Of a stretch of DNA of 64,000 nucleotides, positions 14,624-61,388 are shown piece by piece (position 1 is the first letter of the stretch; every line of letters begins with the position of its first letter). A program made the position numbers and the translations under genes. The notes beneath the pieces are model-generated. The model made no database searches. It had not been told where the DNA came from and saw only the letters and a list, made by a program, of their open reading frames with translations. Source of the DNA: Neocallimastix lanati (nom. inval.) (taxonomy: Eukaryota > Neocallimastigomycota > Neocallimastigomycetes > Neocallimastigales > Neocallimastigaceae); contig JACVTC010000200.1 of NCBI GenBank assembly GCA_016946835.1, positions 1-64,000 of the forward strand, written 5' to 3'.

Positions 14624-14707
<84 letters not shown>

Positions 14708-15109: not shown

Positions 15110-15166
<57 letters not shown>

Positions 15167-15636
15167 TATTTCCAATATTAATAAATGTAAATCAAATATA
15201 AATACCTTTTTCAAACATAAAAAACCAATAATATAAATGTTTAATTAAATTAATTTCAAATAGCATAATGAAAAATATTACATTAAAAAATAAGATAAAA
15301 ATAGAAACCAATCATAATTCTGAATTATATTATTTTATAATTTTTTATTAAGTAATAAATATAACTTAACCAATTATCAAAAAATATATATTATTAAAGT
15401 TCATTATAAATTATCAAGGAAATATTAAACAATATATATTTCAATTTACATTTATTTAATGAAAATAGAATAAGGTTTTAATCAATATATTGAATATGTA
15501 TAAATAAACAATCCAGACATACAACATATCCCTCATCAATTATTCTTTAAAATTTTAAAAAAAAAAAAAAAAATATTCGCATAATATAAAATATTAATAA
15601 ATTATTAAAAAATAAATTAATTTAAAATTCTCCACA
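14418..15636 (+). other. Leader with six near-palindromes and long A tracts
   Basis: Non-coding leader before gag-pol. Six copies of a 22-24 bp unit of the form CAGTCAA...TTTGAACTG (one copy TTCGAACTG) lie at 14798-14820, 14837-14858, 14947-14968, 14982-15005, 15021-15044 and 15058-15081. Each half pairs with the other, giving a short hairpin. A tracts of about 75 (14631-14705), 22 and 48 (15115-15162) bases separate the parts. Confidence 0.85.
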
Positions 15637-18600
15637 ATGGCTAACACAAGAAGAAACAATAGAAATGAAGTAATTACCATTGAAGAACCCATTGACATCA
15701 GGCCAACAATTAAATTTAACTACTCTGAAAATTTTAACAGAGTAGTTGAATTAAATACTGAAAACTATAATAGATGGAGAACCATAATCCTTCATCTATT
15801 ATCAATTAACAACCTAGTTAGCTATATCACCAAAGAAAAAGTTAAGAAATTAAGGAAGAGAGATATACAAGATGACCTATCTAAGTATATCGAAGATGAA
15901 TTTGATGACACATTGGTGTATGACAAAAGCACCAATGTAGTTGATATCAATAACGATATCACAACAAAATGGATCGTCCTAAACAGTATTGGAGAAAAAA
16001 CACAAGACATTGTGCAAGGATCAAATAAAACCGCCTTTGAATTGTGGAAGATTCTAAAAAGATCTTTTACCAAAAACATCAACACGCGTAAATTAGAACT
16101 TAAAACCAAACTCGATAATTTGAAGTATAACCCAGAAGTGGACATTAATATATTTATTGCTGAACTACAGAACACACTTGATGAACTCGAGAAAATAGAT
16201 AATGACATTGAATCAAGTGTTAAAGTAGGCATCCTTAACAGAAGCCTCCCAGAAGAACTCCGTTGGATTAATGTGTTTCAATTTAAAAATGATTGGAATA
16301 AATGCAGTGAATATGTTAAGGATGTATTGCCTGAAATAATCTCTTCAAACCTAAAAGAATCCTTAACAAATAATCAAAATAATAAAAATATATTTTCAAT
16401 AGAAAATAATACTAACATTAATACAAATAAGAAAAAACTTACTAAAATAAAAACATCTACTAAAAAGACCAAAAATGGTAGATGTAATTATTGTGGTAAA
16501 TGGGGCCATTTCTTTTATGACTGTAAAATTAGAAGAGATGATAAAAATAATAACAAAAGAAGAAAAATTTTCAAAAGAAGAAGAAATAATTTTAAAAGAA
16601 AATTTAATAAACGTAGAAATTATGCAAATTTCATGGGAAAAGAAAGGTACGATACAAGCTATGCCGATGCTTTTACCAAGGATTACAATTCTCAAGAAAA
16701 CCTTGATATTAATTTTGCCGAAGTAAATAAACAAAACGAAGAAAATAAACAAAAAGAAATGATGTGTTGGATATTGGACTCCGGTGCATCAATAAATATT
16801 ACTGGTCATTTAAATAAATTACATAATATTCAAAAGTGCAATGACAAGGTTTATTTAGCTAATAATCAAGTTATATCAACACAATTTAAAGGAGATCTCA
16901 TAGGATACATTAATAATCACAAAATAATCATTAAGAATGTTTATTACTCACCAAAAATAAATAAAAATTTATTATCAATTGGAAATCTAACACAACAAGG
17001 ATACAAAATAATTTTCAATAATACTAATAATAAATCATATGCACTAATTTATGACGAACACAATCAAAGAATATTATCAATTAAATCGAACCAATCTAAT
17101 ACATTTAAATTTTGGATTTCAACTCAACCATTAAATTTTCAAAACAACCAACATAATAATAATTTGGTTGAAATCAATTATACACATTTAAAATCAATTG
17201 ATAAACTAAATTTATGGCATCGTCGTTTTGCCCATTTTAATATCAATAGTATCAAAAATAAAATTTTAAAAATCAACGTAAACTCAAAGTGCCCTATTTG
17301 TAGTTATTCAAAACTTAAAAATAAGCCCTTCAAATCATCACATAATAGAGCCAAAAATATATTTCAACTCATACACATGGATCTTATAGGTCCAATACAA
17401 AACTCTATCTATGACAATAAATATATCTTAACCATTTTGGATGACCATTCAAGATTTGGGTGGACTCTCTTTATGAAGAGTAAATCAGAATCTTTTTATC
17501 ACTTCCTTAATTGGTTTAATAAAATAAAAAATCAATTTAACAAAAGAATTCAATATATCCGTACAGATAATGGTACCGAATTTAACAACAAAAATTTCAA
17601 ACAATTTTGCATTGACTTTGGAATACAACATCAATTTACTGTTCCCTACCACCCACAACAAAATGGTAGGATTGAACGATTCAACGGTACTATAATCAAT
17701 TCTGCAAAGTCAATGTTAAATGACGCAAAACTTAGCTTACAATTTTGGGAAGACGCCGTCTCTACTTCGAACTACATTCATAATCGAATCCCTCATAAAG
17801 GGATAAATAATAAAATTCCATATGAACTTTTAACCAATAACAAAGTTGATTATTCAAACATACGTGTCTTCGGATGTAAAGTTTTTTATTACGTTCCAAA
17901 ACTATTCCGTACCAAATTTCAAAATAACTCATCTCCTGGCATATTCTTGGGGTATGTTGATAATCCCACAGCATACAAAATTCTTGATATAACAAATAAT
18001 AAAATTATAATTTCACGAAATGTTGAATTCTTTGAATTTACACCAGGAAATTCACATTTATCTCATTGCGATAATGACATCTCAAATTTTATTCCCAATA
18101 ATATAATAAGGAGGAATGATAATACCTACTTTTATGATAACACGTATGATATAAACCATGGCAAAGACTTTAATAATACTAACAATAATAATCCGTATTA
18201 TCAATATAATAACAATAACTCAAATAATATTCAAATATTAGACAATAATACTCAAATAAATGAAAATAATATACCAAGTAAAAACATTCAAATAAAAAAT
18301 AAAAGAACATATAACAAAAGAAGAAACAACAATAATAACAACACCAAAAATATTAATAATAATCAAAACAAAGATTATAATAATAATATAGAATCTCAAG
18401 ATAATAACATTAACAACAACGACAATAATAATAACAATAACACAAGTAACAATAAAATTAATAACAACGATAACACAAACAGCAACAACAACACTACCAA
18501 CAGCAATAATAACAAAATAAATAATAATATTAATGAAAACGACAATATGATCACTGTCAGTAATAAAAACAATCATAATAATTCAAATATAGACAGATAT

Positions 18601-20304
18601 AATTCAAACAATAATAACGATAACAACAATGAACAACGAATCATTAATAACTTAACGAATAACAAATTATTTAACATAGAATCTTCCATACATTTAGGAA
18701 AAAGAAATAGAAATGAAAACTTCATATTAAATTCAAATAACAAAAAACAAAAATCATTAGAAGAATTACGCGAACCAAATAATTATGATGATATCTTTAA
18801 TTTAAATGATAAAAATGAATGGTTAAAATCAGTCGATAATGAACTCGACAATATGAGAAATCTAAAAGTATATGAAACAATTGATAAAATACCTAAGAAC
18901 GCAAACTTAATATCATCAAGATGGATTTTCAAATTCAAACGAAACTCAAATGGAGAAATAATCAAAAGAAAATCAAGATTAGTAGCAAAGGGATTTACGC
19001 AAGAATACGGCATAGATTATAAAGAAACCTTTGCACCTACCTTAAAACAGGATTCAATAAGAATCTTTACAGCAATTGCCACTCAGAACAATTTTGAAAT
19101 AAACCAAATAGATATAACTGCCGCCTATTTAAATGCTGAATTAAATGAAGATTTGTATATGAAACCTCCTAAAGGACATGAAGATTACAATAAGAAATTT
19201 TGGAAATTGAAGAAGGCAATATATGGACTGAAACAAAGTGGTGCCAAGTGGAATGATAAATTAAACGGCTATCTAATAAAAATTGGATATAAAAGACTTA
19301 TAAGTGAACCTTGTCTGTACGTTAAATTTAATAAAGGAAAACTTTTAAGTATGTTAGCTATATATGTGGATGATATTCTAATATCAGGATCAAAGAAAAC
19401 AATAGAAAGTGTAAAATTATTAATTGAGAAAAAGTTCAAAATGAAAGATATAGGTAATGTTGATTATATTATTGGAATAAAATTTATAAAACATAAAAAT
19501 GGTTACTTTTTACATCAACACAGATATATAGATGAATTACTTTCTAAGTTTAATATGAAAAATTGTACACCTCTTAGAATTATGACTCCAATTGAAAATG
19601 AAGATCTTAGGAAGGTAAAAGTAGATGAAACAAAATATAGAAGCATAATAGGAAATTTATTATATCTCAGTATATGTACAAGACCCGACATTATCTTCTC
19701 AGTATCAAAAGCAGCTAGAAGGGCAAAGGAACCAAATATGGAAGACTGGAATAACGTAATGAGAATATTAAGATATTTAAAAGGAACTAAAAAATATGGA
19801 ATAAATTTCACAAATAATCCGAATGTTAAAGCGTATGTCGATTCGGATTACGGAGGTGACTTGGAAACTAGACGTTCAACAACAGGATTCTTAATAACAT
19901 TTGGCGGTGCACCAACAAGCTGGTGTTCAAAGTTACAAAAATCAATATCGACTTCAACAGCCGAGTCCGAATATTACAGTCTTAGTGAATGCGGTAAACA
20001 ATGTATATGGTACTTAAATTTATTCGAAGAATTGAACTTAAATATTAAAAATATTGAAGTAAATGTTGACAATAAAGCAGCTATTTATAACGCTACAAAT
20101 CAAACTATCAACCCAAAAACTAAACATGTAGACATTAGGGTCCATTACATAAGAGAAATAGTCAAAGAAAATAAAATCTATCTTAAATATATAAAATCTG
20201 AAAACAATCTCGCTGATGGGTTTACGAAGTATTTAAATGGGACATTAATGGATAAATTTAGAAATTCCTTATTAACAAAAATTGATGATTTATATTTTAT
20301 TTGA
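15637..20304 (+). CDS. Gag-pol polyprotein of the family-C copia element
   Basis: Single frame of 1555 residues. In order: a gag-type domain (about 30-240), a CCHC zinc knuckle near 283, the aspartic protease near 380, a pre-integrase zinc domain and integrase core (about 520-700), a long Asn-rich linker (about 830-1030), reverse transcriptase (about 1050-1300, active-site block near 1243) and RNase H (from about 1400). The start MANTRRNN is the first ATG after the leader and begins the conserved gag segment. Ty1/copia elements often make Gag and Pol from one frame, and no frameshift signal is needed here. Length and domain order are normal for a full copia polyprotein. Confidence 0.92.
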   Translation: MANTRRNNRNEVITIEEPIDIRPTIKFNYSENFNRVVELNTENYNRWRTIILHLLSINNLVSYITKEKVKKLRKRDIQDDLSKYIEDEFDDTLVYDKSTNVVDINNDITTKWIVLNSIGEKTQDIVQGSNKTAFELWKILKRSFTKNINTRKLELKTKLDNLKYNPEVDINIFIAELQNTLDELEKIDNDIESSVKVGILNRSLPEELRWINVFQFKNDWNKCSEYVKDVLPEIISSNLKESLTNNQNNKNIFSIENNTNINTNKKKLTKIKTSTKKTKNGRCNYCGKWGHFFYDCKIRRDDKNNNKRRKIFKRRRNNFKRKFNKRRNYANFMGKERYDTSYADAFTKDYNSQENLDINFAEVNKQNEENKQKEMMCWILDSGASINITGHLNKLHNIQKCNDKVYLANNQVISTQFKGDLIGYINNHKIIIKNVYYSPKINKNLLSIGNLTQQGYKIIFNNTNNKSYALIYDEHNQRILSIKSNQSNTFKFWISTQPLNFQNNQHNNNLVEINYTHLKSIDKLNLWHRRFAHFNINSIKNKILKINVNSKCPICSYSKLKNKPFKSSHNRAKNIFQLIHMDLIGPIQNSIYDNKYILTILDDHSRFGWTLFMKSKSESFYHFLNWFNKIKNQFNKRIQYIRTDNGTEFNNKNFKQFCIDFGIQHQFTVPYHPQQNGRIERFNGTIINSAKSMLNDAKLSLQFWEDAVSTSNYIHNRIPHKGINNKIPYELLTNNKVDYSNIRVFGCKVFYYVPKLFRTKFQNNSSPGIFLGYVDNPTAYKILDITNNKIIISRNVEFFEFTPGNSHLSHCDNDISNFIPNNIIRRNDNTYFYDNTYDINHGKDFNNTNNNNPYYQYNNNNSNNIQILDNNTQINENNIPSKNIQIKNKRTYNKRRNNNNNNTKNINNNQNKDYNNNIESQDNNINNNDNNNNNNTSNNKINNNDNTNSNNNTTNSNNNKINNNINENDNMITVSNKNNHNNSNIDRYNSNNNNDNNNEQRIINNLTNNKLFNIESSIHLGKRNRNENFILNSNNKKQKSLEELREPNNYDDIFNLNDKNEWLKSVDNELDNMRNLKVYETIDKIPKNANLISSRWIFKFKRNSNGEIIKRKSRLVAKGFTQEYGIDYKETFAPTLKQDSIRIFTAIATQNNFEINQIDITAAYLNAELNEDLYMKPPKGHEDYNKKFWKLKKAIYGLKQSGAKWNDKLNGYLIKIGYKRLISEPCLYVKFNKGKLLSMLAIYVDDILISGSKKTIESVKLLIEKKFKMKDIGNVDYIIGIKFIKHKNGYFLHQHRYIDELLSKFNMKNCTPLRIMTPIENEDLRKVKVDETKYRSIIGNLLYLSICTRPDIIFSVSKAARRAKEPNMEDWNNVMRILRYLKGTKKYGINFTNNPNVKAYVDSDYGGDLETRRSTTGFLITFGGAPTSWCSKLQKSISTSTAESEYYSLSECGKQCIWYLNLFEELNLNIKNIEVNVDNKAAIYNATNQTINPKTKHVDIRVHYIREIVKENKIYLKYIKSENNLADGFTKYLNGTLMDKFRNSLLTKIDDLYFI

Positions 20305-20318
20305 AATAATATAAATTA

Positions 20319-20357
20319 AAAATATGACATTTTAGGAAAGTCATATTTTAGGAGGAA
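20319..20357 (+). other. Hairpin and polypurine tract before the 3' LTR (family C)
   Basis: Arms AAAATATGAC (20319-20328) and GTCATATTTT (20340-20349) form a perfect 10-bp stem with an 11-base loop, followed at once by the purine tract AGGAGGAA (20350-20357) and the LTR. Families A and B have a hairpin at the same place with different sequence. Confidence 0.8.
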
Positions 20358-20596
20358 TGTTAGAATATAAAAAAATAAATACTTAATAATGACTTTATTA
20401 TATTTTACCCAATCAGAATATTATTATATTTAAATAAAATTATAAAAGAAATAAAATGTAACCTTGTTAAAAATATATACACTTTTGTAATTATAAAAAA
20501 ATAAAGATAAATAAAATTAAATATTAAGTATTATATATAAAATGTTATTCTAAAAATATATCTAATTTTCTCAATATTTGTTTTTGGTGTTTAATA
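20358..20596 (+). repeat. 3' LTR of the family-C element
   Basis: 239 bp, same as 14145-14383, followed by the target duplication AAAAT. The bases 20602-20733 that follow, up to the next element, are AT-rich spacer without features. Confidence 0.92.
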
Positions 20597-20733
20597 AAAA
20601 TATTAGCAATTTTTCTTAAACACAATTATTATTTAATTTTTATAATAATATTTCTTAAAGACTTTATTTATATTATTATTAATTTTCTAAAATTAATCTT
20701 TTTCTAAGGAAAAAGTGAATTTGAAAACTATTT

Positions 20734-21002
20734 TGTTAAAAACAAATTTATAAATCTAAGACAAACACTGTATTAATAAAGACAATATAACAAAGTATTT
20801 TATGTTATGAGTAATATTATAAAATGTTTATTAATAATTTTTATTATGAGGATATATATATTTTTCTAAGAGATATTTTTACATTAAATTTATTTCATAT
20901 TTTATATCTTAGTTAATATTATTTAATTTAATTAAAGATTAATTATTGGTTGATATAAATTAATAATATAAATAAATGTATGTAACGATTTCGTCTCTAA
21001 CA
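20734..21002 (-). repeat. 3' LTR of the family-A element
   Basis: 269 bp. On the minus strand it begins TGTTAGAGACGAAATCG after a G-rich purine tract (GGGGGAA). Same length as the copies at 26485, 30136 and 59948. Confidence 0.92.
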
Positions 21003-21042
21003 TTCCCCCACAATTATAACCTATTTTTTAAGGTTATAATTG
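21003..21042 (-). other. Polypurine tract and hairpin of the family-A element
   Basis: Arms CAATTATAACCT (21011-21022) and AGGTTATAATTG (21031-21042) form a perfect 12-bp stem with an 8-base loop, right beside the purine tract at 21003-21010. Confidence 0.8.
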
Positions 21043-21071
21043 ATTATTTTTTTTATTTTAAAAAACTTAAG

Positions 21072-24000
21072 TTAATAAATTTTTAAGTCCATTGGCTGTG
21101 TTAATAATGAATTTCTAAATTTATCCATGGAAGATCCGTTTAGATATTTCGTAAAGCCATCTGCTAAATTGTTTTGAGATTTTACATATTTCAATATTAT
21201 TTTATTGCTCTTTACTAATTCTCTTACATAGTGCAATCTTATGTCCATATGCTTTGTTCTTGGATTAATCGATTGGTTTTTTGCATTATAGAGTGCGGCT
21301 TTATTGTCTATGTTGACTTCAATACCACTGATGTTGTATTTTAATTCCTTCAATAAATTTATGTACCACATGCAATGTTTGCTACATTCGCTAAGACTAT
21401 AATATTCGGCCTCAGCTGTGGAAGTCGATACACAATGCTGTAGTTTTGAACACCAAATAGTAGGTGAATCTCCTATTGTAATTACAAATCCTGTAGTCGA
21501 TCTTCTTGTTTTTGTGTCCCCAGCGTAGTCTGCATCTACGAAAGCTTTGACATTTGAGTTTCTTGATATGTTAATACCATATTTTATTGTTCCCTTTAAA
21601 TATTTTAATATTCGTTTTAAATTTTCCCAATCTTCCAAGTTAGGTTCTTTTGATTTTTGTGCCGCTTTGGATACTGCATATAATATATCGGGTCTAGTAC
21701 AGATACCTAAGTATAATAAGCTTCCAACAGCGCTTCTATAAGTAGTTTCATTCATTTTCGTTTTTCTCAATTCTTCATTTTCAATTGGTGTTATATTACG
21801 AATAGGAGTAGCACTTGACAATCCATATTTGATAATTATATCGTTTATATATCTTTCTTGATTTAAGAAATAACCGTTTTTATGCTTTACAAATTTTATT
21901 CCTATTATGAAATTGACTTCACCGATTTCTTTTATTTTGAATTTATTTTTTATCATATTTTTGATTTGATCTACTTTTGCTTTGTTACCTGCAAGTAGTA
22001 TATCGTCCACATAAACAGCTATGAGGCATGTAATCTTGTTATGTTTATCTGTTGTAAAGTATATACATGGTTCACAAGTCAATCTTTTGAAGCCAATGTT
22101 TAGTAGATGCCCATTTAATTCATTGTTCCATTCCATTCCGCTTTGCTTTAAACCATATATGGCTTTCTTGAGTTTCCAGATGTATTTCTTATGATCGGGA
22201 TGTCCTTTTGGAGGCTCCATGTATATTTCTTCCTTTAGATGAGCTTTTAAATAAGCAGCATTAACATCTATTTGTTCTATTTGGAAATTATTTCTTGCAG
22301 CTATATGTGTAAATATTCTTATCGAATATAGTTTTAAGGTGGGTGCAAATGTATCTTTATAGTCTATTCCATGTTGCTGTGTGAACCCTTTTGCTACAAG
22401 TCTTGTTTTTCTTTTGACTATGTCCCCTTTAGAATTTCTTTTGTATTTGAATATTAGTCTGGATTTGATAATATTAGCTTCTTCTGGGATTTCATCTTTA
22501 TTTACTTGTTCATAAACTTTTAGGTCTCTCAAGTTGCCAAATTCATTTTCAGCAGAGTTAAACCATTCTTCTTGATCTTCGAGGTTGTATATATCGTCAT
22601 AGTCTAAAGGTTCTCTTAAATTTTTATTTAATACTTGATTGTTACATATAAAAGTATTATTATTGTTAGGTGTTTGGTTTCCTTTAACTTTATTGTTTTG
22701 GTTGCTTATAATACTGTTGATATTCATATCGTTTGTTTCAGAATGAATGTTCGTATTTAAATGATTGTTGTTGTTTTTTGTTTGATTAGTGTTGATGTTA
22801 TTATCATTGCTTTGAGTAGTATTAATAGTGTTATTTTGATTATTATTGATGTTGTTATTTTTGATAGTGCTGGTAACTTTGCGTTGATTTGTGCTATTAG
22901 TTGTATTTAGAGTAGAAGTGTTATTAGTGTTTTGGTCTTTTCCTTGTTTATTGAAATGAACTGTGTTTTTGTTTATGCTGTTTTCTGGAATAAATATTGA
23001 TGCTGGTTTTGCGTTAATAGGATTTTTTTGTGTAAGAGTTATTGTAGTAATAAGAACTACTATTCCCCCAAATTTCATAATTGGGAATAAAATTTTGATG
23101 GTCAGTACAGCAATTAGTCGTATAAAAATCTCCAGGATTGGATTCAAAAAATTCAACACTACGTGAGAGTATTATTTTATTGTTAGATGTGTCTAAAATT
23201 TTATAAGCTCTGGGGTTATCTGAATAACCAAGAAAAATACCAGGAGAAGCATTATTTTGAAATTTTGTTCTAAAGGATTTTGGGATGTAGTAATAGACTT
23301 TACATCCAAATACTCTTATATTTGAATAATCTACTTTTGATTTGTTTAGCCGTTCATATGGGATGATGTTGTTGATTCCACGATGTGGTAGTCGATTATG
23401 TATATAATTAGAGGTTTGAACGGCGTCTTCCCAAAAGTGTTTACTCAGCTTAGCATCGTTAAGCATTACTTTGGCAGATGAGATTAGAGTTCCATTGAAT
23501 CGCTCAGCTCTTCCATTTTGCTGAGGATTGTGTGGAACAGTAAATTGTTGAATGATTCCGTAAGATTGACAGAAGTCCTTGAAGTTATTATTGCGGAATT
23601 CCGTACCATTATCAGACCGTAAATATTTTATTCTAGTATTGTACAAATTTTTTACGTTATTGAACCATTTATAAAAAGCGGGAAATGTGTAATCTTTACC
23701 TTTTAGAAAAAGAACCCATCCGTATCTAGAGTAATCATCTAAAATAGTAAAAAAATATTTGTTTCCGTGAATGGATTCAGGTAATGGACCTACCAAGTCC
23801 AAGTGTAGTAGTTCAAAGATATGCTTAGTTGTATTGATATTTTTTGAATAAGGTTTGTTTTTAATCTTGGATTGAGCACATAGAGGACATTTTAATTTGA
23901 TATCTGTCTTAAGTAATTTGTTTTTAATTGATTTTATATCGAAGTGACTAAACCTTCTGTGCCATAAATTTAATTTATCAGGAATCTTCATGTTAATATA

Positions 24001-25516
24001 GTTGATTTCATCATTTGTGTTTCTGGTATTATTGTCGTGTAGAAATATACGTTGGGTTGATAACCAAATGTTGAATGTGTTATTTGCATTTGAAATAATA
24101 TTGGCGATTTTGTTTTGGTATTTGTCATAGATCGTGACATATGATTTGTTGTGATTGGTGTTAAATAAAATTTTATAATTTTGTTTAATTAAGTTTCCAA
24201 TTGATATTAAATTTTTATTGATTAATGGTGAGTAATAAACATCTTCGATTGTAAATTCGTATTCATTAATGTATCCTATGAAGGTGCCTACTTTATTAAT
24301 GATAATCGATTGATTATTTGCAAAAAATATTTTTTCATTGCAATATTTAATATTTGTGAGTTTATCTAGTCTGTTGGTGATGTTGATTGAAGCTCCTGAA
24401 TCTAAGGTTTATTAATAGACTTTGTTGATTTATTTTTATTATCTATTAAGTCTATAGTATTTGATTCATTTGTGTTGTAATCTTGAGAAAAACACTCTGC
24501 ATATATATCGTTATAGTTGTTTCTTTGAATGTTATCTATAACCTTTTTGTTTTTTATATTTGATTTATTATAATTGTTTTTTCTTTTAAAATTTGTATTG
24601 CTTCGTCTTCTTAATTGGTTTCTTTTTCTTTTAAAGCAATTGTAAAAGAAATGCCCTCTTTTACCACAGTAGTTGTATTTTATATTTGGTCGTTTTGTAT
24701 TTTTATTGATATTCTTGATGTATCGTTTTGATTTTTCTTGATTCTTTTTGTATGTACTCTCAGCTGAAAAAATGTTTTTATTATTGTTTTCTTTAATGTA
24801 ATTTGATTCTGTTAGATTGGATAACAAGATTTGTGGTATTACATTTTTTACATAATCGGTACATTTTTCCCAATCACTGTTGTATTGAAATACATTGATG
24901 AATCGAAGGTTTTCCGGTAGCGCCCTATTCAAAATATCGACTTTTGTGCTGGTGCTTAGATCTTCATCTATTTTTTCTAATTCTTCAATAGTGTTTTGAA
25001 GATCTGCCATAAATATATTTATATCTTGTTCTTCTTCGAACTTTAACTCGTTTAGTTTTTTCTTTAGTTCTAACTTTCTAGATTCCTTTGATTTAGTAAA
25101 TGATTTCTCTAAGAGTTTCCAAACTTGATGAGCTGTTTTTCCATTTCCCTTTACTATTTCTTGAGTCTTTTCTCCTAAGGTGTTAAGTATCATCCACTTT
25201 GCTGTAATATCGTTGTTAATATCATTTTCATTAGTATTTTTAGCATATACTAATGTGTTGTCAAATTGGTCTTCCGTGTAGTTTAATATGTCCTCTTTGA
25301 TGTCTTTCTTAATTTCTTAATTTTTTCTTTAGTGGCGTAAAGTACTAGATCATTTATGGTCAATAAATAAAGGATGTTTCCTTTCCATCTCGGATAATTT
25401 TCAGTTGTTAATTCAATTACTCTATTGAAATTCTCAGAGTAATTGAAATTCACTATCTTCCTTGGATTGTCAGTAGCTTCCACGTTGATTACTTGATTAA
25501 TTCTTCTTGGTGTCAT
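21072..25516 (-). mobile_element. Gag-pol region of the family-A element, broken
   Basis: From right to left: gag with zinc knuckle (about 24.4-25.5 kb), protease and pre-integrase area (about 23.9-24.4 kb), integrase (about 23.1-23.9 kb), an Asn/Thr-rich linker (about 22.6-23.0 kb), reverse transcriptase and RNase H (about 21.1-22.6 kb). Clearly related to the family-C polyprotein but diverged. About four breaks; a fossil copy. Confidence 0.9.
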
Positions 25517-26233
25517 TTTATTCTTTATTAATAATTGAAGTAATATTAATATATCTTATATTTAATTTTTAATATTGTTTTAAATTATTTAATATCAGAA
25601 GAGAATTTTGTGTTTTAGGGTATTCTATTTTATATATATTATTTTTATTATTTTATTAATTATATATTAAAATTATATATATTTATATTAAAAATAAATT
25701 TTGTTTATATTATATATGTCCTTTGATTCGTGTGTAAAAATAAAAAATATAAACCATTTAAATTCATTGGGTACTATTAATAGTAACAAATTTTGTTTTG
25801 TATATATATATATTGTTGTGAACATTGAAATTACTTTGTCTATAACTATAAATGTATTTGATTGCTTTTATTCTATATTAATTTAATTTAAGTTTTATTT
25901 ATTTTTTAACCCCTAGTTTTAATGACATAAATTACTATTATTTATTTCAATTATTTTCAACATAGTTAGTTGTCAATTATTTTTATTTAATAGTCAATTA
26001 TTTACAACTTAACTAGTTGATATTTATTTTATTTTTATTTTTATTCAACCTAGCTAGTTGACAATTATTTATATTTTAATATCAATTATTTACAACTTAG
26101 CTAGTTTGCATTTATTTTTTATTTTCAATAATTCTCAACTTAGATGAACTAGTTGACTATTATTTTATTTTATTTTTTATTTTATTTATTTTATTATTTT
26201 TATTTATATAATTATGTATATATATTTATATTA

Positions 26234-26264
<31 letters not shown>

Positions 26265-26484
26265 TCAAAAATAACTATGGCCTATTACAATATATTCTCA
26301 CCTTTGTTTTGTAATATTTGTCTATTAATATTGGTTATTACTTTTTGTTTCTATAATGAATATTATGAAAATAATAAAAATATAATTTTATTAGTTAGGA
26401 TATTAATGATAAATTGATTTTATGTTTTATTTATTCCAACTTAGCTTTATTGATAGCTCAACTGAAGGGTTGAGACTCTTAATC
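25517..26484 (-). other. Leader of the family-A element with palindrome array and primer site
   Basis: Between gag and the 5' LTR. Five copies of a CAACTTAGCTAGTTG-type near-palindrome lie at 25958-25972, 26005-26019, 26046-26060, 26093-26107 and 26136-26155, separated by T-rich linkers. A 27-base T tract (A on the element strand) is at 26234-26260. Next to the LTR (26452-26484) is a primer site that on the minus strand starts GATTAAGAGTCTCAAC, complementary to the tRNA-Lys(CUU) 5' half. Parts of this leader match the leader of the family-B element at about 49.5-49.8 kb. Confidence 0.8.
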
Positions 26485-26753
26485 TGTGAAAAACAAATTT
26501 ATAAATCTAAGACAAACACTGTATTAATAAAAACAATATAACAAAATATTTTATGTTATGAGTAATATTATAAAATGTTTATTAATAATTTTTATTATGA
26601 GGATATATATATTTTTCTAAGAGATATTTTTACATTAAATTTATTTCATATTTTATATCTTAGTTAACATTATTTAATTTAATTAAAGATTAATTATTGG
26701 TTGATATAAATTAATAACATAAATAAATGTATGTAACGATTTCGTCTCTAACA
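26485..26753 (-). repeat. 5' LTR of the family-A element
   Basis: 269 bp with TG...CA ends on the minus strand, directly followed by the primer site. Confidence 0.92.
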
Positions 26754-27469
26754 ATCATTCTTTTCAATAGTTATAATTTATATATATATTAAGTATATTA
26801 AATAATAATTATTTTTACAATTTTAACTTAATTCGATTGATGGATTTTTAAAAGTATTAAATTAATAGTTTTAAATTGAATTTTAATAATATAAATAGTT
26901 TTTAAAAATAAAGTTATGTATTATTTTTAATATTTAATTTTTGAAATAAAAAAAAAGACTAAATTATTATTTTTTATATTGTAAATCATATAAAATAATA
27001 TATTAATATATTTATTTATTGACTAAATACTTTTATATGATTATGTATATTAAAATCGTTAAGATTGATTCTAATTTTACTTAATAAATAAAATTTTTTA
27101 AAACAAATTATATCATTATGACCATATATTATAAATTATGTGTTTGAGAGATTAAGAGTTTCAAATCTCATTTGATTAAAATTAACATTGAAAATTACGT
27201 ATTATCTTATTTTATAAACATTTTAAGCTCACTTATATCAAAAAAATAGTAGTAATGAAGAGTATAAATTAATAATAATAAAAATAGAAACAATATTATT
27301 AATAAGAGTAATAGTATTAATAATGAAAATAGGAATATTATTATTAGTGGTAATGAAAATAATAGTATTGTTACTAATAATGTAGTGAATTGATTGATAA
27401 GTGAAAATCTTGTAAATATTAGTAATTTTCTGAATAATTAATTAATACCGATTACATAACTTTTCCTTA
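26754..27469. other. AT-rich spacer with a possible primer-site relic and an Asn-codon-rich stretch
   Basis: At 27140-27170 a GAGATTAAGAGTTTCAAA-type sequence resembles the tRNA-Lys primer site, suggesting an old family-C-like insertion. At 27275-27441 an AAT-rich stretch reads as Asn/Ser/Ile-rich peptide and resembles 59590-59730. Neither is a credible gene. Confidence 0.4.
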
Positions 27470-28639: not shown

Positions 28640-29661
28640 ATGAATATAAATAATAAATTTTCAATTATTATAATAATTTTTATTGTATTACTTATTAAAT
28701 TGAACTATGGCTTTACCATAAAGAAATCGAATAGTAATAAGTTATTATTACGCTGTAAAAAAAAATGTCAAAATAAAAATATCAAATTAAAAAAATTTTG
28801 TAAAAAATGTCCATCCTTTGAAAGTAAAGAATTAACAAATGTTTTATCAAGTGAAAAACCATTAAACCAAAATAATAATAATAATATCAAACATTTCGTT
28901 ATTATTCGGTTTTATTCAGATAATATGATGGAAAAAGAAATAATGTTTGATTATTTGTTTTTACATAATGCAATTAATGATTTTAAGAAATTTACATTGA
29001 AATCTTTGGAAAATCAAAGTAATAAAAATTTTGAAGTAATAATAAAAATTAATAAGGACTTACCAGAAGATAATAAAGCAATATCAGAATTAAAACATAT
29101 ACAATCATCGATTAATATAAATGTAATCCGTTCAAATTTAACAGATAAATATATTATTGATAATACAATAAAGCTAAATTTGTAATAACCACAAGAATTG
29201 ATCATGATGATTTAATATATAACGATGCAGTAAAAGATATACAAAATAAATGTAATGTCAACATACCATTATATTATAATGGGTATAACAATGGAATTAC
29301 AATGATAAATGATAATATCAAAGACTGTTATAAATTTAATGGTAGTTATAAGAGAGGAAGTATCTCAATCTTTCAATCATTAATTATAAATAAAAATTTA
29401 TATAAAGATTATTTAAATATATACTCATTGGGTCCACACAATAATCAAATTGATAAATTTATTAAATTTTATAAAGGATTTGTATATAATAAATCATATT
29501 TTAATATAAATAAATTAGAAAATTCTTTCGTCTATGTTAAACATAATTTTAATCATTCGAGTCATTATAAGTTTAAAAAAAATTGGCATAGATCAAAAGT
29601 TAAAGTAGAAAAAGATAAAGATTGGTTTATAAAAAGATTTGGTAATTTTATTAATAATTAA
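28640..29661 (+). pseudogene. Secreted putative rhamnosyltransferase-family protein, one frameshift
   Basis: Begins MNINNKFS followed by a hydrophobic IIIIIFIVLLI signal-anchor, then a cysteine module (C39, C43, C54, C57: C-x3-C-x10-C-x2-C). From about residue 86 it reads VIIRFYSDN, then FTLKSLENQSNKNFEVIIKI, as in the putative rhamnosyltransferase (Rhamno_transf) family. The frame then slips by one base near 29168-29172 and continues as KAKFVITTRIDHDDLIYNDAV, a DHDD acidic motif expected for metal-sugar-nucleotide binding, then GYNNG and KRGSISIFQS to the stop at 29659-29661. Everything but the slip looks coding, so it is either a fresh pseudogene or a sequence error. If active it would transfer sugars in the secretory pathway; donor and acceptor are unknown. 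Confidence 0.65.
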
Positions 29662-38271: not shown

Positions 38272-39238
38272 TTACATATCTAATGAAAGACATTTTTTAC
38301 ATAATTTTCTTAAATTTATATTTTTATTTGAACATCTTTTCTTACAACGTAATAATAATTTCGGATTGTTTGACCTATTTTTCTTTAATTTATATAATTC
38401 TTTAAATTCATCGTGATAAATATGCCATATGCTATTAATATATTCATATTCAGGTTCATTTGAATTCCAAGGCTTTTTTATAATATAATGAATTATTTTT
38501 TCATTAGATACTTTCTTGTTATTACCATAAAATACTGTATTAATAGTATTATAGATATTAGGTCCTAAAGTTACTTCAATATTGTTTTCAATGAAATATT
38601 CTTGCATAATATCTTGATCTGGATATTCATTATAATGTGCAGACGATTTATTATATTTATATGCTAAATTTAACATTCCGTCAACATGACTTTTATCTAA
38701 CCTATTTTTATTTATAAATATTACACCATTATTGATATATGTATTTTTTGATCCATCAAAAATATTATTCCATATTTCTTTATCTTTAACTAAATGACTT
38801 TCATTGGTAAAGCATATTAAATCTTCATTTCTGTCAAATAATTACTTCTTCAAATCTTTCACCATTCAAATCATTATTATCTTATATGAATATTTTAGTT
38901 ATTCCTAAATTTATATAACATTCAACCCATTCTCTAATATATAAATTTTCATTTTTTTCAATAGCACAAACAGCTATTTTAAGAGGTATATCCCTTTTTC
39001 TTTGTGTTATTACATTTATATTTGAGTTGTTATTGTTTCTTTCTGAAGATACGGATGACAATTTGGTTAGTATTTTATCTGTATAACATTTTTTACAATA
39101 TTTTATTTTATTTTTATTATTAAAATTTTGGCATCTCAAACAGTGTTTAAATAAAGCATTTCTAGAAAAGGTATTGATTTTTCCAATCAAAAAACAAAGT
39201 ACGTAGATTATTAAAAACATTTTAAAGGAAATTTTCAT
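38272..39238 (-). pseudogene. Chimeric glycosyltransferase gene: GT92-like front, GT8-like back, broken
   Basis: The start at 39238 encodes MKISFKMFLIIYVLCFLIG (signal-anchor), a cysteine module (C-x2-C-x11-C-x2-C), then LKIAVCAIEKNENLYIREWVECYINLGITKIFI, the usual opening of GT92/GT2-like enzymes. A TAA (about 38883) stands where the family has IYDNND, followed by DNNDLNGERFEEVI. The frame then slips and the text becomes DRNEDLICFTNES, YINNGVIFINKNRLDKS, YPDQDIMQEYF, NTVFYG and IIHYIIKKPWN, which is GT8 (glycogenin/LgtC-like), not GT92. The protein ends with a second cysteine module, LLLRCKKRCSNKN...LCKKC. One stop and about one frameshift make it inactive as read. It probably arose by recombination between two glycosyltransferase genes. 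Confidence 0.6.
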
Positions 39239-42968: not shown

Positions 42969-44792
42969 TCAAGCAGTATTAGTTTTTTTTGTACATACTC
43001 CATTATTACATTCAAATTCCAAAACATTTGTTATTTTGTTATCCTCCATTGGACATGTATCACCTTTTTCAATAACTTTTAGATTTCCACTACTACTATT
43101 ATTAACATAGACATATTTCACATTATTATTGTATTTTGAGTTTAATGTAATTACTTGATCCTTTATTGATATAATTGCAAATTTTCCTTTTGAAGTGAAT
43201 AAGGTATCCTCCTCTGAGTTACTACTACCATTGTCACTATTACCTTTTCTTCCACTACCAGTTACCATATAATTTCCGTTATTGCTTTTTAATATATCAA
43301 CTGAAATTTTACCATCAAGACAAATTGAAAGTTTATTGTCTTTATAAACAATTCTTCCAATTGCATTACTGTCACATACACCAACAGTATCATCTTTTCT
43401 ACAAGTAGTATTGGAACAGAAATAAATTGTATCCTTATCTACAATATAGTAACCTGTTTCTGTAATTTGTATACATTCTTTTTCTGTCTTACAATAGTAT
43501 AATAATCCAGATCCAGTAGCAATATTATTAAGTGTTTTTTCATGAACAAGATAATAGGAATTTTCAACACAATTTGTTCCTGTATTAATGTCACATTCTT
43601 TTGGGCAATATTTATCATCTACTGGAATAACACTTCCTTCCCCAATTTTAATGCAAACTTTACTACCATCACTAAGGCCTAAAAAATTATCTTCATCATC
43701 TTCATTATCAACAGGATTATTTACAGTAATTGAAATATATTTAATATTTTCCGTATTAGATTGAATTTCAATAATATCTTTTTCATCTTCAGAATCTGAA
43801 GTACAAATATAAACTTTTTTTGATCCATCTTTTTCTGTTTTTACAATAACATCACCAGCACCAAAACAAATATTATCATCTTCTACAATATCACAATATT
43901 CATTTTCTTTTTCACATACAATTATTTTCCCTTCAGAATTACCAGAATTTGTATTGATAAAATATCCTGAAATATTTTCCTCTACATAACATCCTTGTTC
44001 AGTACATGTAATAATACTATCTTTTTCTTCCTCCATTGAAATATAATGATCAACTGAATTATTTGATGCTCCATTGTTAATTTTTTCGCAGTTAAATTCA
44101 GCATTACTACTATCTCCATTACTTCTACGACTTTGATGATTGACATTATTTCCTTCACATTTTATTAATTCGTTATATTTATTTTCAGTATTTTTAGAAG
44201 CACCATCTAAGTAAAAGGTGGTTTCATTCGAATCTATTGGAGATTCAGTAATTAAACTACAGTTACCCTCACTTTTACATTTAAATAATTCATTACTTGA
44301 GTCATTTGATTTATTTTGATTTAAATAATACCCAGCTTCAGTTATTTCCGAACAACTATTAGAAGAAGAGCATTTAAATAAATATTTACCTGAATTATCT
44401 TCAGAGCATTCAGTTCCTTTATTACATTTTGCATTAAATAAATAATATTCTTTTACACCTACCATAATAATGTATTAATATTGAAATTTTTTTTCTTTAA
44501 ATTATTTATATATATTGGTAACTTACATCCATCCCATTGATTACTACTTGAATTAAAAGAACAGCCTGTACCTATGTATTAGATATTAAATTTAAATTTA
44601 TTATTAAAAAATTAAAGATTTTTTAATAAAGAAATATTTTTAATTTTTTTAATTAAATTAATTTATTTTATTTTTATTAATAGCTTCAATATTTTATTTT
44701 TTATTATTTTATTTAATGATATAAAATTTAACCTGCATATACTAAATTGAATATTAATGTGATTAATAATATTATAGACCTAATATTTTCAT
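42969..44792 (-). CDS. Secreted GYY-repeat cysteine-rich protein, scaffoldin-like, three exons
   Basis: Exon 1 (44792-44733) begins ATG and encodes a hydrophobic signal peptide, IILLITLIFNLVYA. Exon 2 (44571-44527) gives GTGCSFNSSSNQWDGC. Exon 3 (44458-42969) continues VKEYYLFNAKCNKGTEC for about 496 residues. Introns of 161 and 68 bp are GT...AG and join in phase. Repeats pair a GYYLN/GYFIN/GYYIV core with a following L-x-x-C...C segment (GKYLFKCSSSNSC, NELFKCKSEGNC, KIIVCEKENEYC), at least five times. There is no Thr stalk and no hydrophobic tail, so it should be secreted or wall-associated, not GPI-anchored. The signal-peptide frame is one base out of step with the ATG near 44780, so the gene is either slightly damaged, misread by one base, or starts elsewhere. 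Role inferred: scaffoldin or related cellulosome surface protein. Confidence 0.7.
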
Positions 44793-46945: not shown

Positions 46946-47147
46946 TGTTAGAAATAAAAATATAAAGTTTTATAAATATATTAATTTAATGAGTATTATT
47001 ATACATTTTAATATATCCGTGTAAAATATGTAACTAATAACAAGGCACATACCACATTAATTATAAATACAACAAAAATATAAAATATTTTAGAAAAATA
47101 CTATTCTTTATACTTATATAATAAAAAAGAGATTCCTATTTTTCACA
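46946..47147 (+). repeat. Solo LTR, family B subtype
   Basis: 202 bp, TG...CA ends, with flanks TAACG and TAACA, a near-match target duplication. Inserted beside the inverted leader fragment. Confidence 0.8.
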
Positions 47148-47880: not shown

Positions 47881-48686
47881 TTAATCTAATTAGTTGAAAT
47901 ACTATTATTAAATTTGTTGAATGATTGATGCTATTATTTTTTTATTTTTTTATTTTTTTGTTATATTTAATTGGTTAAGTAATAATAACAATAATTTTAC
48001 GTTTTAAATTATTGGTTTAAATTTTTGGTATGCTATTCTTCTTTATTTCATATATATTTATTTAGGACAAATTAAACACCTTATAATTTATTATTTATTT
48101 AATTTCTTTTTTATTTTTATTTTAAATTCTATTCATTAAATTTTATTTAATAATTTGTTCTTAACATGAATTATATTTACTTTTTAAATCTTATTAATTA
48201 TTTAAAATTTTAATAAGATTTTCGTTTTTGTCACAAACTATTTTCAATTGGACGTTTTTTATTTGATGCTGACTATTTCAGCATAGAATTATTTGCTGCA
48301 TACTCATGTAAGAGTTGTATTTTTTTCTTTTTTTGATATTAATATTTTAAGACATAAATTAGTAAGTATTTATTTTATTATTTATTCTTATACTATACAT
48401 ATTTTAATACTTAGCTTTATATTGGTTGAGGTCTTTATTAGGTGAATGAGACTCTTAATTTTTTAACAAAATTATAAAAGTGCACTTATAAAGTATAGGA
48501 TATTATTATAGTATTTTATTTTATTAAATAAAAATTAAAAATTACAATATTTTTGTGAACTATTTGTAATTTTCTTATCTTATTTTATTTACATGAAAAA
48601 TATAATTGGTAGATATTATATTCGACACTTAATATTGTCTTTTAATATATTATATAAATATGAAAAAAATTTTAGAACAACGATTT
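47881..48686. other. AT-rich stretch with a probable degraded minus-strand LTR element end
   Basis: At 48440-48458 GAATGAGACTCTTAATTT resembles the minus-strand primer site. What follows to 48686 vaguely follows the family-A LTR order (a TTGGTAGATAT block, then CAACGATTTTG). Very diverged, low confidence. A hairpin GATGCTGAC...TCAGCAT lies near 48266-48283. Confidence 0.35.
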
Positions 48687-48893
48687 TGTTAGAAACAAAA
48701 ATAATAAGATTTATAGTTATATTATTTAAAGGAGTAATGTTATATAAATTAATATATTAGTGTAAGATATGTGACCAATAGTAACAAAAAGCCACATATT
48801 ATTTTTACTATAAATACTATAAAGAAGTATAAAATTATGTATGTATACTATTCTTTATTCTTATATAATAAAAAGAGATTTATACTTTTCACA
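48687..48893 (+). repeat. 5' LTR of the family-B element
   Basis: TGTTAGAAAC...CTTTTCACA, 207 bp, preceded by GATTT. Confidence 0.92.
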
Positions 48894-48927
48894 GATTAAG
48901 AGTCTCAACTCTTCAGTTGAGCTATCC
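48894..48927 (+). promoter_or_regulatory. Primer-binding site of the family-B element, tRNA-Lys(CUU) 5' half
   Basis: Starts GATTAAGAGTCTCAAC directly at the LTR end. The reverse complement ends GAGACTCTTAATC, with a TAGCTCAACTG D-arm-like part before it. Same site as in families A and C. Confidence 0.7.
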
Positions 48928-49890
48928 ATATAGCTAAGTTGAAATATATAAAATATAAAATCATTTAAATATAAAATTATTATTAATCAAACTAATAAAT
49001 ATATATTTTTATTATTTTTATAAAATTTATTATAGAAGCAAAACGTAATAACCAATATCCATAAGAAAATATTACAGAACAATTGTGAGAATGTTAAGGA
49101 TATAAAATTTAAAATAAAATGCTTATTGTAATAGGTCATAGTTATTATTAATTATTAAAAAATAAAAAATGATATAAATACATATACATATAATTAGATA
49201 AAAAGAAAATATTAAAATAAAATAATAGTCAACTAGTCTATCTAAGTTGAGAATTATTGAAAATAAAAAATAAATGTCAACTAGCTAAGCTGTGAATAAT
49301 TGATAATAGAATAAAAATAATTGTCAACTAGCTAGGTTGATTAACAATAAAAATAAAAATAATTATTGATTAGTTTATCTAAGTTGTAAATAATTAACTA
49401 TAAAATGATTGTCAACTAGATTAACTAAATTGAAAATAATAGAAAATAAAAATAAAAATAATAGTCTAACTAATTACAAATAATCTGTTTATTCAAGTTA
49501 ATTAATAATAACTATTTTTAACTAAATATTAATGAAACACATAAAATAAAAAATTAACAACTAATTGAAAAAGAGACAAATAAAAATGATTTATAAAAAT
49601 TAATATTAACATTAATAAATAATATAAACATAATTTATTTTTAATATAAATAAATATATAATTAATAAAATAATAAAATTATTAAATATTAAATAATATA
49701 TCCTTACACACAAAATCCGTTCTGACATTATACAATTCAAAATAATTTAAAAGATATAATATACATTTATTATGAATCAACTTAATTTTTAATATACAAT
49801 AAAATACCATCAAGAAAAATTAACAAGTAATTAACGTTGAAACTAGAAACAATCCACAGAAAATATAATAATAGAAATTTTAATAATTAA
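48928..49890 (+). other. Leader of the family-B element with palindrome array
   Basis: Near-palindromes of the type CAACTAGCTAAGTTG lie at 49230-49249, 49278-49292, 49325-49339, about 49368-49386 and 49413-49432, in A-rich linkers. The part at 49500-49830 is homologous to the family-A leader, and the end (from about 49806) resembles the first codons of the family-A gag region. No open frame. Confidence 0.75.
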
Positions 49891-50509
49891 AGTTTTACAC
49901 TAAAATTTTAACAAATAATGTTCAAGAAATAAATTAAAATTAAAGTATCCGAGAAATTATTTTTAACAAAACTTTTATAAATCAATAAAATTTTAATTTA
50001 TTATAATATTTTTATTTAATACATTTCAAATTTTAATTTATAATAATTTTAAAATGTCCAATTATATCAATCTATTAAAAATAATATTAATGATTTATTA
50101 AATTAAAATTAAATTAAATTCAATCAATAAAATAAATTTCATTATTTTTGCTAAACTTTAATCAATAATATTTAATACATTCCATCAATATTAATAACAA
50201 TTTAAAATATTTTTAAAAAAAATTATATTATTAATAATATATAATATTTACAAAAATCTAATCTATCATTTATTAATCTAAATTTTGTTAAATCTCGAAA
50301 CTTGATATTTAAAATATTTATATAATTTTTTTATAACATATTTATTCATATAAAACCCATTTATATATCATTAACAATATTAGGGAAGATTAAATTTAGA
50401 TAATCTATATAAAAAAATTTAATATATATTATTTGAATTATTTATTATTCTCCAAATCAATGCTTAACATCTAAACATAAATGGGAATCATATATATATT
50501 TATATATAA

Positions 50510-51012
50510 AAAAGAAGTAGGAGATTTAAATGCTATTAAAAATATGATCGTTAATACCAGAAAACCTATGAATAGATTTGGAGGTATTTTATAACTAATA
50601 AATACATTTACCAATAAAAGATTTTTTGAAAAAGATTTTTTTTTATGAAATTAACTCATTTATCCGATGAATCTTCGCAATGGTGTTTTAATATTATTGA
50701 AAATAAGAAGTTACGTTTATCCTTCGCAATTTATTATTATTTAAAAGATATTACTTTGAATTAACAAATAAATGACAAATGCGTTGTAGATTTTGAAACA
50801 GTGTTATATTTATTTTATAAAAATAATAATTAATTTAATGGAGATATTCTAGTAATACATGATGAGAAATACAGCATTTTATCAAATGAATTAAATTTTA
50901 TTATTTATAATTAGTAAAAAAAAAAAAAAAAAAAAAAAATAATAATAATAATAAAAAACACACATTATTTAAATACAGTTATATACAATACTCTTAATAT
51001 AATCAATATATA

Positions 51013-51050
<38 letters not shown>

Positions 51051-51380
51051 TATATTAGTATAAATGAAATAATCAACAATAAACCAATATTATAAATTAT
51101 ATATTGTTATAGTTTTGTAATTTTTTTTATTTATTTTCAGCTTGCTTTAATCAAGCTTTTAAAGAACAAGTTAATGCTCAGTTTGGCTTTTTCTAACCAG
51201 TTAAAACTGTTGATCCAAAGGTTGATACAACTATTGATATACTTAATAGATTGAAGAAATATATCAAACAACCGAAGACAATATTAAAAAGATGATTAAT
51301 TGTATGAAAACCACTATGAACGAAACAAAAGCAATTTGCCTTTGTATCTAAAGATGCAAAATCAAAAGGAGATAAAGTTG

Positions 51381-51443
<63 letters not shown>

Positions 51444-51897
51444 ATAAATCTTGTTAGTTATTCTTTAAGTTCAAGTTCTAAAGATATTAATTATTTATAC
51501 TTACCTGTTATGGAAAACTTCCATGAATGGCTAAAAACTTTCTTAGATAAAACTATTCGTGATGCCGAAGATCCTGTTTACAATTATAATAATGTTCGTA
51601 CTGAAATGGATATTACTACTCAAATGATTGCTCAAACAAAATAAAGATTAAGTACCGAAATTAATGGCATTCAAGAATGTAGACGTGCTATCTCAATATT
51701 AAGGGAACATGAACAATTATAAAATAAAGAAGGATAAATATGAATTATTATGTGAAGAAGTCATTAAAAATATTGAATTATTAGAAGCTAAGGGTAAGGC
51801 TGATATACCAAATTACCTTCAATTTATGTATGATTCTATGAATATTTTCTATCATCAAACAATAAATTATTTCCCAGAAAGTGATTCATATAAATAA
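50510..51897 (+). pseudogene. Cargo: BAR-domain-like host gene segment inside the family-B element, broken
   Basis: The clear part is 51139-51897. It opens after a TTTATTTATTTTCAG splice-acceptor-like sequence and reads CFNQAFKEQVNAQFG, KTVDPKVDTTIDILNRLKKY and TTEDNIKKMINCMKTTMNE, later FHEWLKTFLDKTIRDAEDPV then YNYNNV, and VIKNIELLEAKGKADIPNYL. This is the pattern of membrane-curving BAR domains (KTVDP...; then a three-helix coiled coil with an R/K-D...L-Y-NY block). A 55-base A tract interrupts it. The preceding stretch 50510-50910 reads LSDESSQWCFNIIENKKLRL and is unassigned. GTAAAA at 50913 with the acceptor at 51138-51140 would be a retained intron. Broken in a handful of places and treated as a fossil; the original host gene would lie elsewhere. 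Confidence 0.5.
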
Positions 51898-52164
51898 AAA
51901 ATAATAATAATAATAAAATAAGATAAAAAGACATAATAATAATTTAAGTAAAGAAAGATTAATAAATAATTTTAATAATAAAAAAAATAACTCCAATCCA
52001 ATTTGAAAGTAAGGGGAAACGTTAGAATTTAAAGTATATAAAAAAATTTCTTAAGTTTACAAATAAAAATAAAAATAATTCTTTTCATATACTTAATAAT
52101 ATGTTAGTTGTATTATTATTAAAAATATTATTTTATATAGTAATACATTTGCAATATTTCTCTT

Positions 52165-52203
52165 CAACTCTAACTTTCACCCAAAGTTAGATTTGAGGGG
52201 GAA
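52165..52203 (+). other. Hairpin and polypurine tract before the 3' LTR (family B)
   Basis: Arms CAACTCTAACTTT (52165-52177) and AAAGTTAGATTTG (52183-52195) give a 13-bp stem with one mismatch and a 5-base loop, followed by the purine tract AGGGGGAA and the LTR. Confidence 0.8.
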
Positions 52204-52410
52204 TGTTAGAAACAAAAATAATAAGATTTATAGTTATATTATTTAAAGAAGTAATGTTATATAAATTAATATATTAGTGTAAGATATGTGACCAATAGTA
52301 ACAAAAAGCCACATATTATTTTTACTATAAATACTATAAAGAAGTATAAAATTATGTATGTATACTATTCTTTATTCTTATATAATAAAAAGAGATTTAT
52401 ACTTTTCACA
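52204..52410 (+). repeat. 3' LTR of the family-B element
   Basis: 207 bp, about one mismatch to the 5' LTR, followed by the target duplication GATTT. Confidence 0.92.
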
Positions 52411-52427
52411 GATTTGTTAAAGCTATA

Positions 52428-52631
52428 TGTTAGAAATATAAATATAAAGTTCTATAATATTTTAATTGAAAAAGTAATGCTAAATAATTTAATAAAATCA
52501 TGAAAAATATGTAACCAATAATAATAATAAGCCACATATTATGTTAACTATAAACACCTAAAAATGTACATTACTTTATTCATACACAATTAATATATTT
52601 TCATATAATGAAGAGATTTTTTTCTAAAAAC
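52428..52631 (+). repeat. Solo LTR, family B subtype, old
   Basis: Starts TGTTAGAAATATAAATATAAAG, closer to the LTR at 46946 than to 48687. The shared AAGCCACATATTATG block is present; diverged at the right end. The young family-B element inserted 12 bp to its left. Confidence 0.75.
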
Positions 52632-61149: not shown

Positions 61150-61388
61150 AATAAGAATAACTTTATTATGTAAAAATAAAGAATAATGTCAATATATACA
61201 ATTATACATTTTTGTGGTATTTATAGTTGACATAATATACGGCTTATTATTATTACCTATTATATATCTTACGCATATATATTAAAATATATAATATTAC
61301 TCCTTAAATTAATCTAATTATAAAACTTTATATTTATATTTCTAACATTCTCCCTCAACTCCAACTTTATCCAAAGTTAGAGTTGAAT
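61150..61388 (-). mobile_element. 3' LTR and internal 3' end of a family-B element
   Basis: Minus-strand LTR (about 61150-61347) followed on the right by the purine tract and the hairpin arms TCAACTCCAACTTT and AAAGTTAGAGTTGA (61355-61385), the same layout as at 52165-52203. The element is cut off to the right of the hairpin. The LTR is diverged, so old. Confidence 0.75.

Follow-up and report, generated by a model that had tools for sequence, protein, structure and literature searches.

An LTR retrotransposon family carrying segments of two host genes in the gut fungus Neocallimastix lanati

Capture of host genes by long terminal repeat (LTR) retrotransposons is well known in plants, and the closest known case to the element described here is maize Bs1, which has no reverse transcriptase (RT) of its own and is present in few copies. 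Our element lies at 48687-52410 of the window, the whole 64,000-nucleotide stretch analyzed here (Neocallimastix lanati contig JACVTC010000200.1, positions 1 to 64,000; 19% GC), and carries segments of a BAR gene and of a glycosyltransferase-8 (GT) gene. The accessible text of two reports describes Bs1 as an LTR element holding segments of three host genes, none of them full-length, and reports this as transduction (PMC13317346, PMC7264820). The window family resembles Bs1 in having host gene segments within an LTR element. In contrast to Bs1, it represents a fungal copia lineage, contains two other host genes and has at least 39 copies in several lineages, and its donor gene is still present in the genome with introns that the element lacks. 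In addition, a working chimeric protein is claimed for Bs1, as far as the accessible text of its reports goes, whereas we found no evidence of one for the window family.

Among other plants, rice and sorghum contain 672 and 1343 host genes, respectively, within LTR pairs, many of the rice ones decayed, according to the accessible part of the survey (PMC3726574); those are annotated genes in many different elements, in contrast to the single family found here, which amplified with two adjoining gene copies. Among fungi, the accessible text on WEIRD, Mg-SINE and MGL of Magnaporthe describes chimeric retrosequences, one of them tripartite, formed by RNA template switches (PMC2104539). As described there, these chimeras are driven by a long interspersed nuclear element (LINE) and combine two retrotransposons with a non-coding RNA, whereas the window family carries protein-coding host genes. 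Boty-like elements of Botrytis are reportedly fungal LTR elements with an extra antisense gene, brtn, whereas the captured BAR part of the window family is in the sense orientation. Laboratory chimeras of yeast Ty1 also exist. Transduplication of the hAT type in Pyrenophora (PMC3538342) and gene captures by Helitrons in Pleurotus (PMC4289320) concern, in the accessible text of these papers, gene-capturing DNA elements, in contrast to the LTR retroelement of the window. Among the literature matches listed, in a search that left subscription literature mostly outside, we recognized neither a fungal LTR element that had multiplied with a spliced host mRNA nor gene capture in gut-fungal retrotransposons.

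The window family is a new and well-supported case of a known type of element, the transducing LTR retrotransposon. Its unusual points are the fungal host, a pair of adjoining host genes, introns lost exactly relative to a donor in the same genome, and the multiplication. This one genome contains the donor gene, its introns, the junctions and dozens of copies that differ in age, and a process like retroviral gene capture may be read in it stepwise, from capture through coding loss to amplification, in an early-diverging fungus. We conclude that the window element very probably belongs to a non-autonomous LTR retrotransposon family derived from Ty1/copia, in which copies of host transcripts took the place of gag-pol.

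Structure and copies of the element

The element is a real LTR retrotransposon with a primer site, a purine tract and a shared target-site duplication. Its 207-bp 5′ LTR (48687-48893, TGTTAG...TTCACA) and its 3′ LTR (52204-52410) are identical at 206 of 207 positions and are flanked by the duplication GATTT (48682-48686 and 52411-52415, read from the sequence and without strand); all other features of the element given here are on the plus strand. The primer binding site (48894-48927) is followed by a non-coding leader with internal short repeats (48928-49823), and the retroelement 3′ region (51988-52203) contains a hairpin (52170-52190) and a purine tract (52195-52203) ahead of the 3′ LTR. 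A sequence-only reading of the window had described the near-identical LTRs, the duplication, the primer site, the leader, the hairpin and the purine tract, and all are there. It had also seen no protease, integrase or RT, in agreement with which we detected no pol-like open reading frame (ORF) of at least 60 amino acids within 48687-52410. The pol of two other copia elements of the window, one at 14145-20596 and one designated element C, gave no convincing match, the few matches in their coding part being short and A-rich, and an Rfam scan of the element yielded no family reaching its cut-off.

Within the 3′ region, a further purine-rich stretch with CGTTAGAA behind it (52007-52027) is similar to a purine tract and the start of an LTR, and is perhaps a fossil LTR junction of an earlier rearrangement. 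By eye, a hairpin stands directly before the purine tract in the window element, in the 14145-20596 element (20300-20357) and in element C, with differing sequences, which suggests a conserved structural feature.

The genome (199 Mb in 762 contigs) contains many further copies; for most genome searches the best 40 candidates were scored, and the counts are lower bounds. The LTR of the window element, termed family B, had at least 41 genome matches, and the BAR segment had at least 50 matching stretches, which merged into at least 40 places comprising one host gene and at least 39 element copies. The view of the window element as a singleton was rejected on this count, and the search for other copies with family-B LTRs that the sequence-only reading had suggested was thus productive. 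A family-B LTR-like stretch was present at every fetched BAR locus (designated by L numbers) except the locus of the host gene. Two full LTRs were found at 21 loci; the 5-bp flanks were identical in 16 of these pairs (L009-L021, L029, L045 and the window), and the LTRs of seven pairs lacked any difference. Because L017 and L018 have 100 bp of flank in common on both sides, they represent a single insertion present twice in the assembly, giving independent counts of 15 of 20 for the duplications and 6 of 20 for the identical LTRs. Both captured parts, GT and BAR, were enclosed in 19 of the 21 LTR pairs, the exceptions being L032 and L045. At C390:1151109, leader, GT and an LTR are joined without BAR. 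C25 was considered as a pre-capture form and rejected; it retains part of the 3′ flank of the BAR gene, making a deletion derivative likelier.

The BAR-carrying element places, at least 39, lie on 12 of the 762 contigs (C390, C379, C212, C75, C102, C90, C511, C155, C114, C41, C732 and C265). A search for the fungal-dockerin domain CBM_10, in which the best 150 of 1440 candidates were scored, gave matches over the cut-off for all 150, and none of the 12 contigs was among these best 150 matches. This distribution hints at a separate transposon-rich genome compartment. The 150 CBM_10 matches over the cut-off, in an AT-rich genome, fit an anaerobic gut fungus (Neocallimastigomycota), a group marked by this combination.

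Captured gene segments and their donors

Two separate open pieces of the element matched the Arfaptin profile PF06456 colinearly, and no gag-type domain was found, in line with the earlier proposal of a BAR-like coding segment. The piece at 51300-51641 matched profile positions 67-149 (E 3.8e-6, 27.1 bits against a 32-bit cut-off) and that at 51709-51894 matched positions 176-227 (E 0.0018, 18.4 bits against the same cut-off); host exon E4 scored 62.6 bits, above the cut-off. A genome search with PF06456 gave 34 rows, and matches over the cut-off without stops lay on C223, C36, C423 and C86. The host BAR gene on C423 (locus L041) is 88% identical to the main exon of the element, is free of stops in the exon and has no family-B LTR in its 8-kb locus; no PDB entry matched the host BAR exon. 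The claim that an LTR element lost gag-pol and transduced a host BAR gene is upheld, and the BAR gene outside LTRs for which the sequence-only reading had proposed to look is this donor, with its introns present.

Alignment of the element with L041 gave five colinear blocks with gaps at the host introns, which were read from the alignment as intron 1 (L041 2432-3222, GTAAGT...ATTTAG, 791 bp), intron 2 (L041 3302-3540, GTACGA...AAATAG, 239 bp) and intron 3 (L041 4003-4377, GTATTG...GATTAG, 375 bp). The captured copy starts at about host position 2313, and an A-run forms its end. In the window element, 5′ exon U1 (50934-51056; host L041 about 2324-2431; 84% over 102 bp) ends at the host GTAAGT site, and exon U2 (51057-51138; host L041 3223-3301; 87% over 82 bp) starts directly after the host ...ATTTAG. 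These are followed by the remainder of exon E3 (51139-51371), the first part of which, including the start codon, is missing in the lineage of the window copy, and by exon E4 (51372-51883; 88% identical to host E4), which lacks host intron 3 ahead of it and contains a 55-nt A-run (51386-51440) and an in-frame TAA. The 3′ flank or untranslated region with its terminal A-run (51892-51987) matches the host 3′ flank at 91% over 96 bp, and the junction type of the window copy here was also found in five other copies inspected.

Across the genome, element copies are contiguous over the intron joins, reading TATATT/AGTATAAAT and AAAGGAG/ATGAAG (slashes mark the joins) or close variants. The join of E3 and E4 was readable in 33 loci, none of which kept intron 3. 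Two of the 33, L043 and L032 (in its second unit), carry a small deletion there, and the junction rows of L021 and L045 are spurious. Since the younger copies lack the start of exon E3, the join of U2 and E3 (TTCG/GGAAAA or variants) is visible only in older copies, six of which could be read (L033, L034, L039, L042, L043 and the second unit of L032). All three host introns are missing in some older copies, and in the paralogue on C86 an interruption lies at roughly the site of the third intron of the host gene. The exact absence of the introns, together with the grouping of 34 element copies in one clade beside the donor (a branch of the exon tree parts them from C423 and C86 with support 98/96), points to one capture of a spliced mRNA. 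These alignments indicate that the BAR segment came from spliced mRNA of the intron-bearing gene on C423.

The motif TTTTCAG at 51134-51140 was considered as a splice acceptor and rejected; it is a deletion joint, since some older copies keep the rest of E3. The 55-nt A-run in E4 varies in length among otherwise near-identical copies, and the host has AAAACAAAAG at this place.

Upstream of the BAR part, 50453-50895 was rejected as decayed gag because it is a fragment of a host GT gene, decayed, with stops and an internal 141-bp loss. It matches the 602-amino-acid host ORF of L046 (82% over 317 bp and 89% over 126 bp; tblastn match to glycosyltransferase, E 1e-37), which contains the glycosyltransferase-8 domain PF01501 (E 1e-12). 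Glycosyltransferase genes outside the element lie at L046 and L050, and a paralogue with the same domain on C390 is 86-88% identical. The sequence-only reading had not set this stretch apart from a decayed gag start homologous to a family A; a short gag start does exist at 49824-49865, and the DNA around it matches element C. Its picture of a single captured host gene was correct for BAR and incomplete, there being two captured genes in a family of many copies. The GT survey covered the plus strand only, with loci oriented by their BAR matches, and two reversed loci (L036 and L037) gave no rows. The GT fragment was present in 31 of the 35 loci giving any match (missing from L028, L034, L039 and L045) and, where found, preceded the BAR part in the same orientation. 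Several other copies have a longer left GT part than the window copy.

Decay, parent lineage and alternative explanations

Exon E4 was analyzed in 34 of the 39 copies, four matches shorter than 380 bases being dropped and L044 lacking the exon. A young clade of 25 of the 34 copies (support 100/99) contains the window copy and near-identical sisters; the branching order of the copies outside it was not settled by the tree. In 33 of the 34 copies the host frame of the exon contains a stop, the sole exception lacking 66 bases, and one stop is common to 25 copies, namely 24 members of the young clade and L042 outside it. The BAR start codon is absent in the young clade, and variable columns among the copies are spread evenly over codon positions (69/58/65). 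An intact carried protein was rejected in view of the in-frame stops, and the carried BAR gene is dead. Because the capture came before the copies had split into several lineages, it is older than the recent jumps; the earlier description of a recent gene-carrying element therefore holds for transposition and not for the capture. The order of events would accordingly have been capture, coding loss and then amplification, with recent transposition and an older capture.

The parent lineage is indicated by the leader. Window positions 48886-49865, which include the primer site, are 70.6% identical to positions 265-1303 of element C (E 1e-148), a copia element at 20729-26756 on the minus strand with a homologous leader and primer site and broken frames. 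The gag start at 49824-49865 (QVINVETRNNPQKI; 14 codons) is identical to a copia gag at 10 of 14 residues and alone gives E 0.23; the DNA around it is 77% identical to element C over 266 bp (E 6e-52). On C268 lies a coding copia element whose LTR is of the B type (84% identical along all 207 bases), with a leader 69% identical, an integrase and RVT_2. The element at 14145-20596 on the plus strand, a copia element with an open 1555-amino-acid gag-pol and identical 239-bp LTRs that is taken here as family A, was rejected as direct parent or nearest partner, its LTR and leader matches being short, weak or A-rich. Since C268 and element C are similar to the window element in LTR or leader and the 14145-20596 element is not, the helper likely belongs to the C/C268 side. 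The earlier suggestion that family A supplied the proteins in trans meets only weak matches at 14145-20596 and would be nearer the mark if element C was meant.

In a host tRNA-Lys(CTT) gene confirmed by ARAGORN, the 5′ half has TGAGACTCTTAATC and a large part of the D-arm in common with the complement of the primer site, and the complementarity extends, with a few mismatches, to just past the anticodon loop. Half-tRNA priming is known for Drosophila copia. An identical primer site occurs at five further places. Six sites initially regarded as possible tRNA genes were rejected as such; they are primer sites of other elements, and ARAGORN finds no tRNA there. The tRNA-Lys(CTT) gene pattern had 73 matches, on contigs C188 (72 kb), C251, C266, C304, C353 and others, many of them in arrays that resemble palindromic tandem repeats, the strand switching at intervals of about 5-6 kb.

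We propose that the family arose by packaging and template switching, which are also known for retroviral gene capture. Host BAR mRNA would have been packaged beside element RNA in a virus-like particle, and a template switch by RT would have produced a chimera of element and host RNA. This chimera would retain what must act in cis (leader, primer site, purine tract and LTRs) and nothing that acts in trans, and coding copia relatives with similar LTRs or leaders would supply the proteins. Template switching by RT is described for LTR elements in the accessible text of one report (PMC13317346). Because the amplifying lineage has no BAR start codon and nearly all of its copies have a common stop, the protein would play no part in the recent spread. 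There is a slim chance that the captured GT-BAR RNA is useful to the element as RNA, in packaging, dimerization, transcript stability or escape from small-RNA silencing, with dead copies perhaps feeding small RNAs onto the host BAR and glycosyltransferase genes; if so, an element without a working protein could multiply through captured RNA.

The main rival explanation, which we consider unlikely, is that a LINE inserted a processed BAR retrocopy into an existing LTR element, which then amplified with its passenger, without need of a template switch of its own. The absence of introns would agree with such an origin, as would the end of the host homology in an A-run at 51987, where a poly(A) tail would be expected; host DNA itself, however, has an A-run at the same point, so that an added tail is not needed. 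Moreover, no direct repeats around the insert were seen at the inspected junctions (by eye only), and the adjoining GT fragment would require a second event. It is very improbable that the carried gene is functional cargo kept for its protein, in the manner of accessory-gene retrotransposons. The insert does persist in most copies across lineages, and second codon positions differ less from the host than the others (449 versus 568 and 611), but the stops in the host frame, the missing start codon of the amplifying clade and the even spread of variable columns over codon positions largely refute this explanation for the copies in this genome. Finally, a DNA-level rearrangement that placed the gene between two independent LTRs by recombination or nested insertion has next to no probability, since, crowded as the region is with copia elements and LTR fragments, it is contradicted by 5-bp duplications matching in 16 of 21 pairs, by an internal order that recurs at many sites and by the loss of introns, and the window LTRs are a pair with a shared duplication, so that the alternative of independent LTR insertions weighed in the sequence-only reading failed.

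Several observations weigh against the capture of host transcripts by a copia-derived element. Matching duplications are absent in five of the 21 LTR pairs (L022, L025, L026, L027 and L032). The captured stretch of the GT donor is free of introns, so that the intron evidence for an RNA origin concerns the BAR part. For the AT-rich segment at 49866-50452, which sister copies also carry, comparison with gag, GT and the BAR gene yielded nothing convincing. The LTR of C268 was found once among the best 40 matches, and the trans-acting partner is a candidate. The host exon borders are predictions based on splice motifs, on homology and on the paralogue. The differences between host and copies by codon position (568/449/611) leave second positions somewhat spared, which may reflect the own evolution of the host gene or constraint before decay.

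Other features of the transposon-rich regions

Four further LTR-like stretches in the window (52428-52619, 46946-47147, 7859-8062 and 61162-61347) are 73-77% identical to the family-B LTR and are probably its older relatives. A Cys/Lys-rich motif of the type RCKKKCQNKN...KKFCKKC recurs in ORFs at window positions 28640-29185, 38272-38676 and 38882-39238, as well as in L035 (1327-2349) and L039 (1599-2378). These ORFs have different adjoining domains, by eye glycosyltransferase-, esterase- and methyltransferase-like, and form a family of secreted-looking proteins. In addition, window positions 512-7120 and 42969-44465 encode long repetitive proteins of 2202 and 498 amino acids, respectively, with recurring blocks around GYY.

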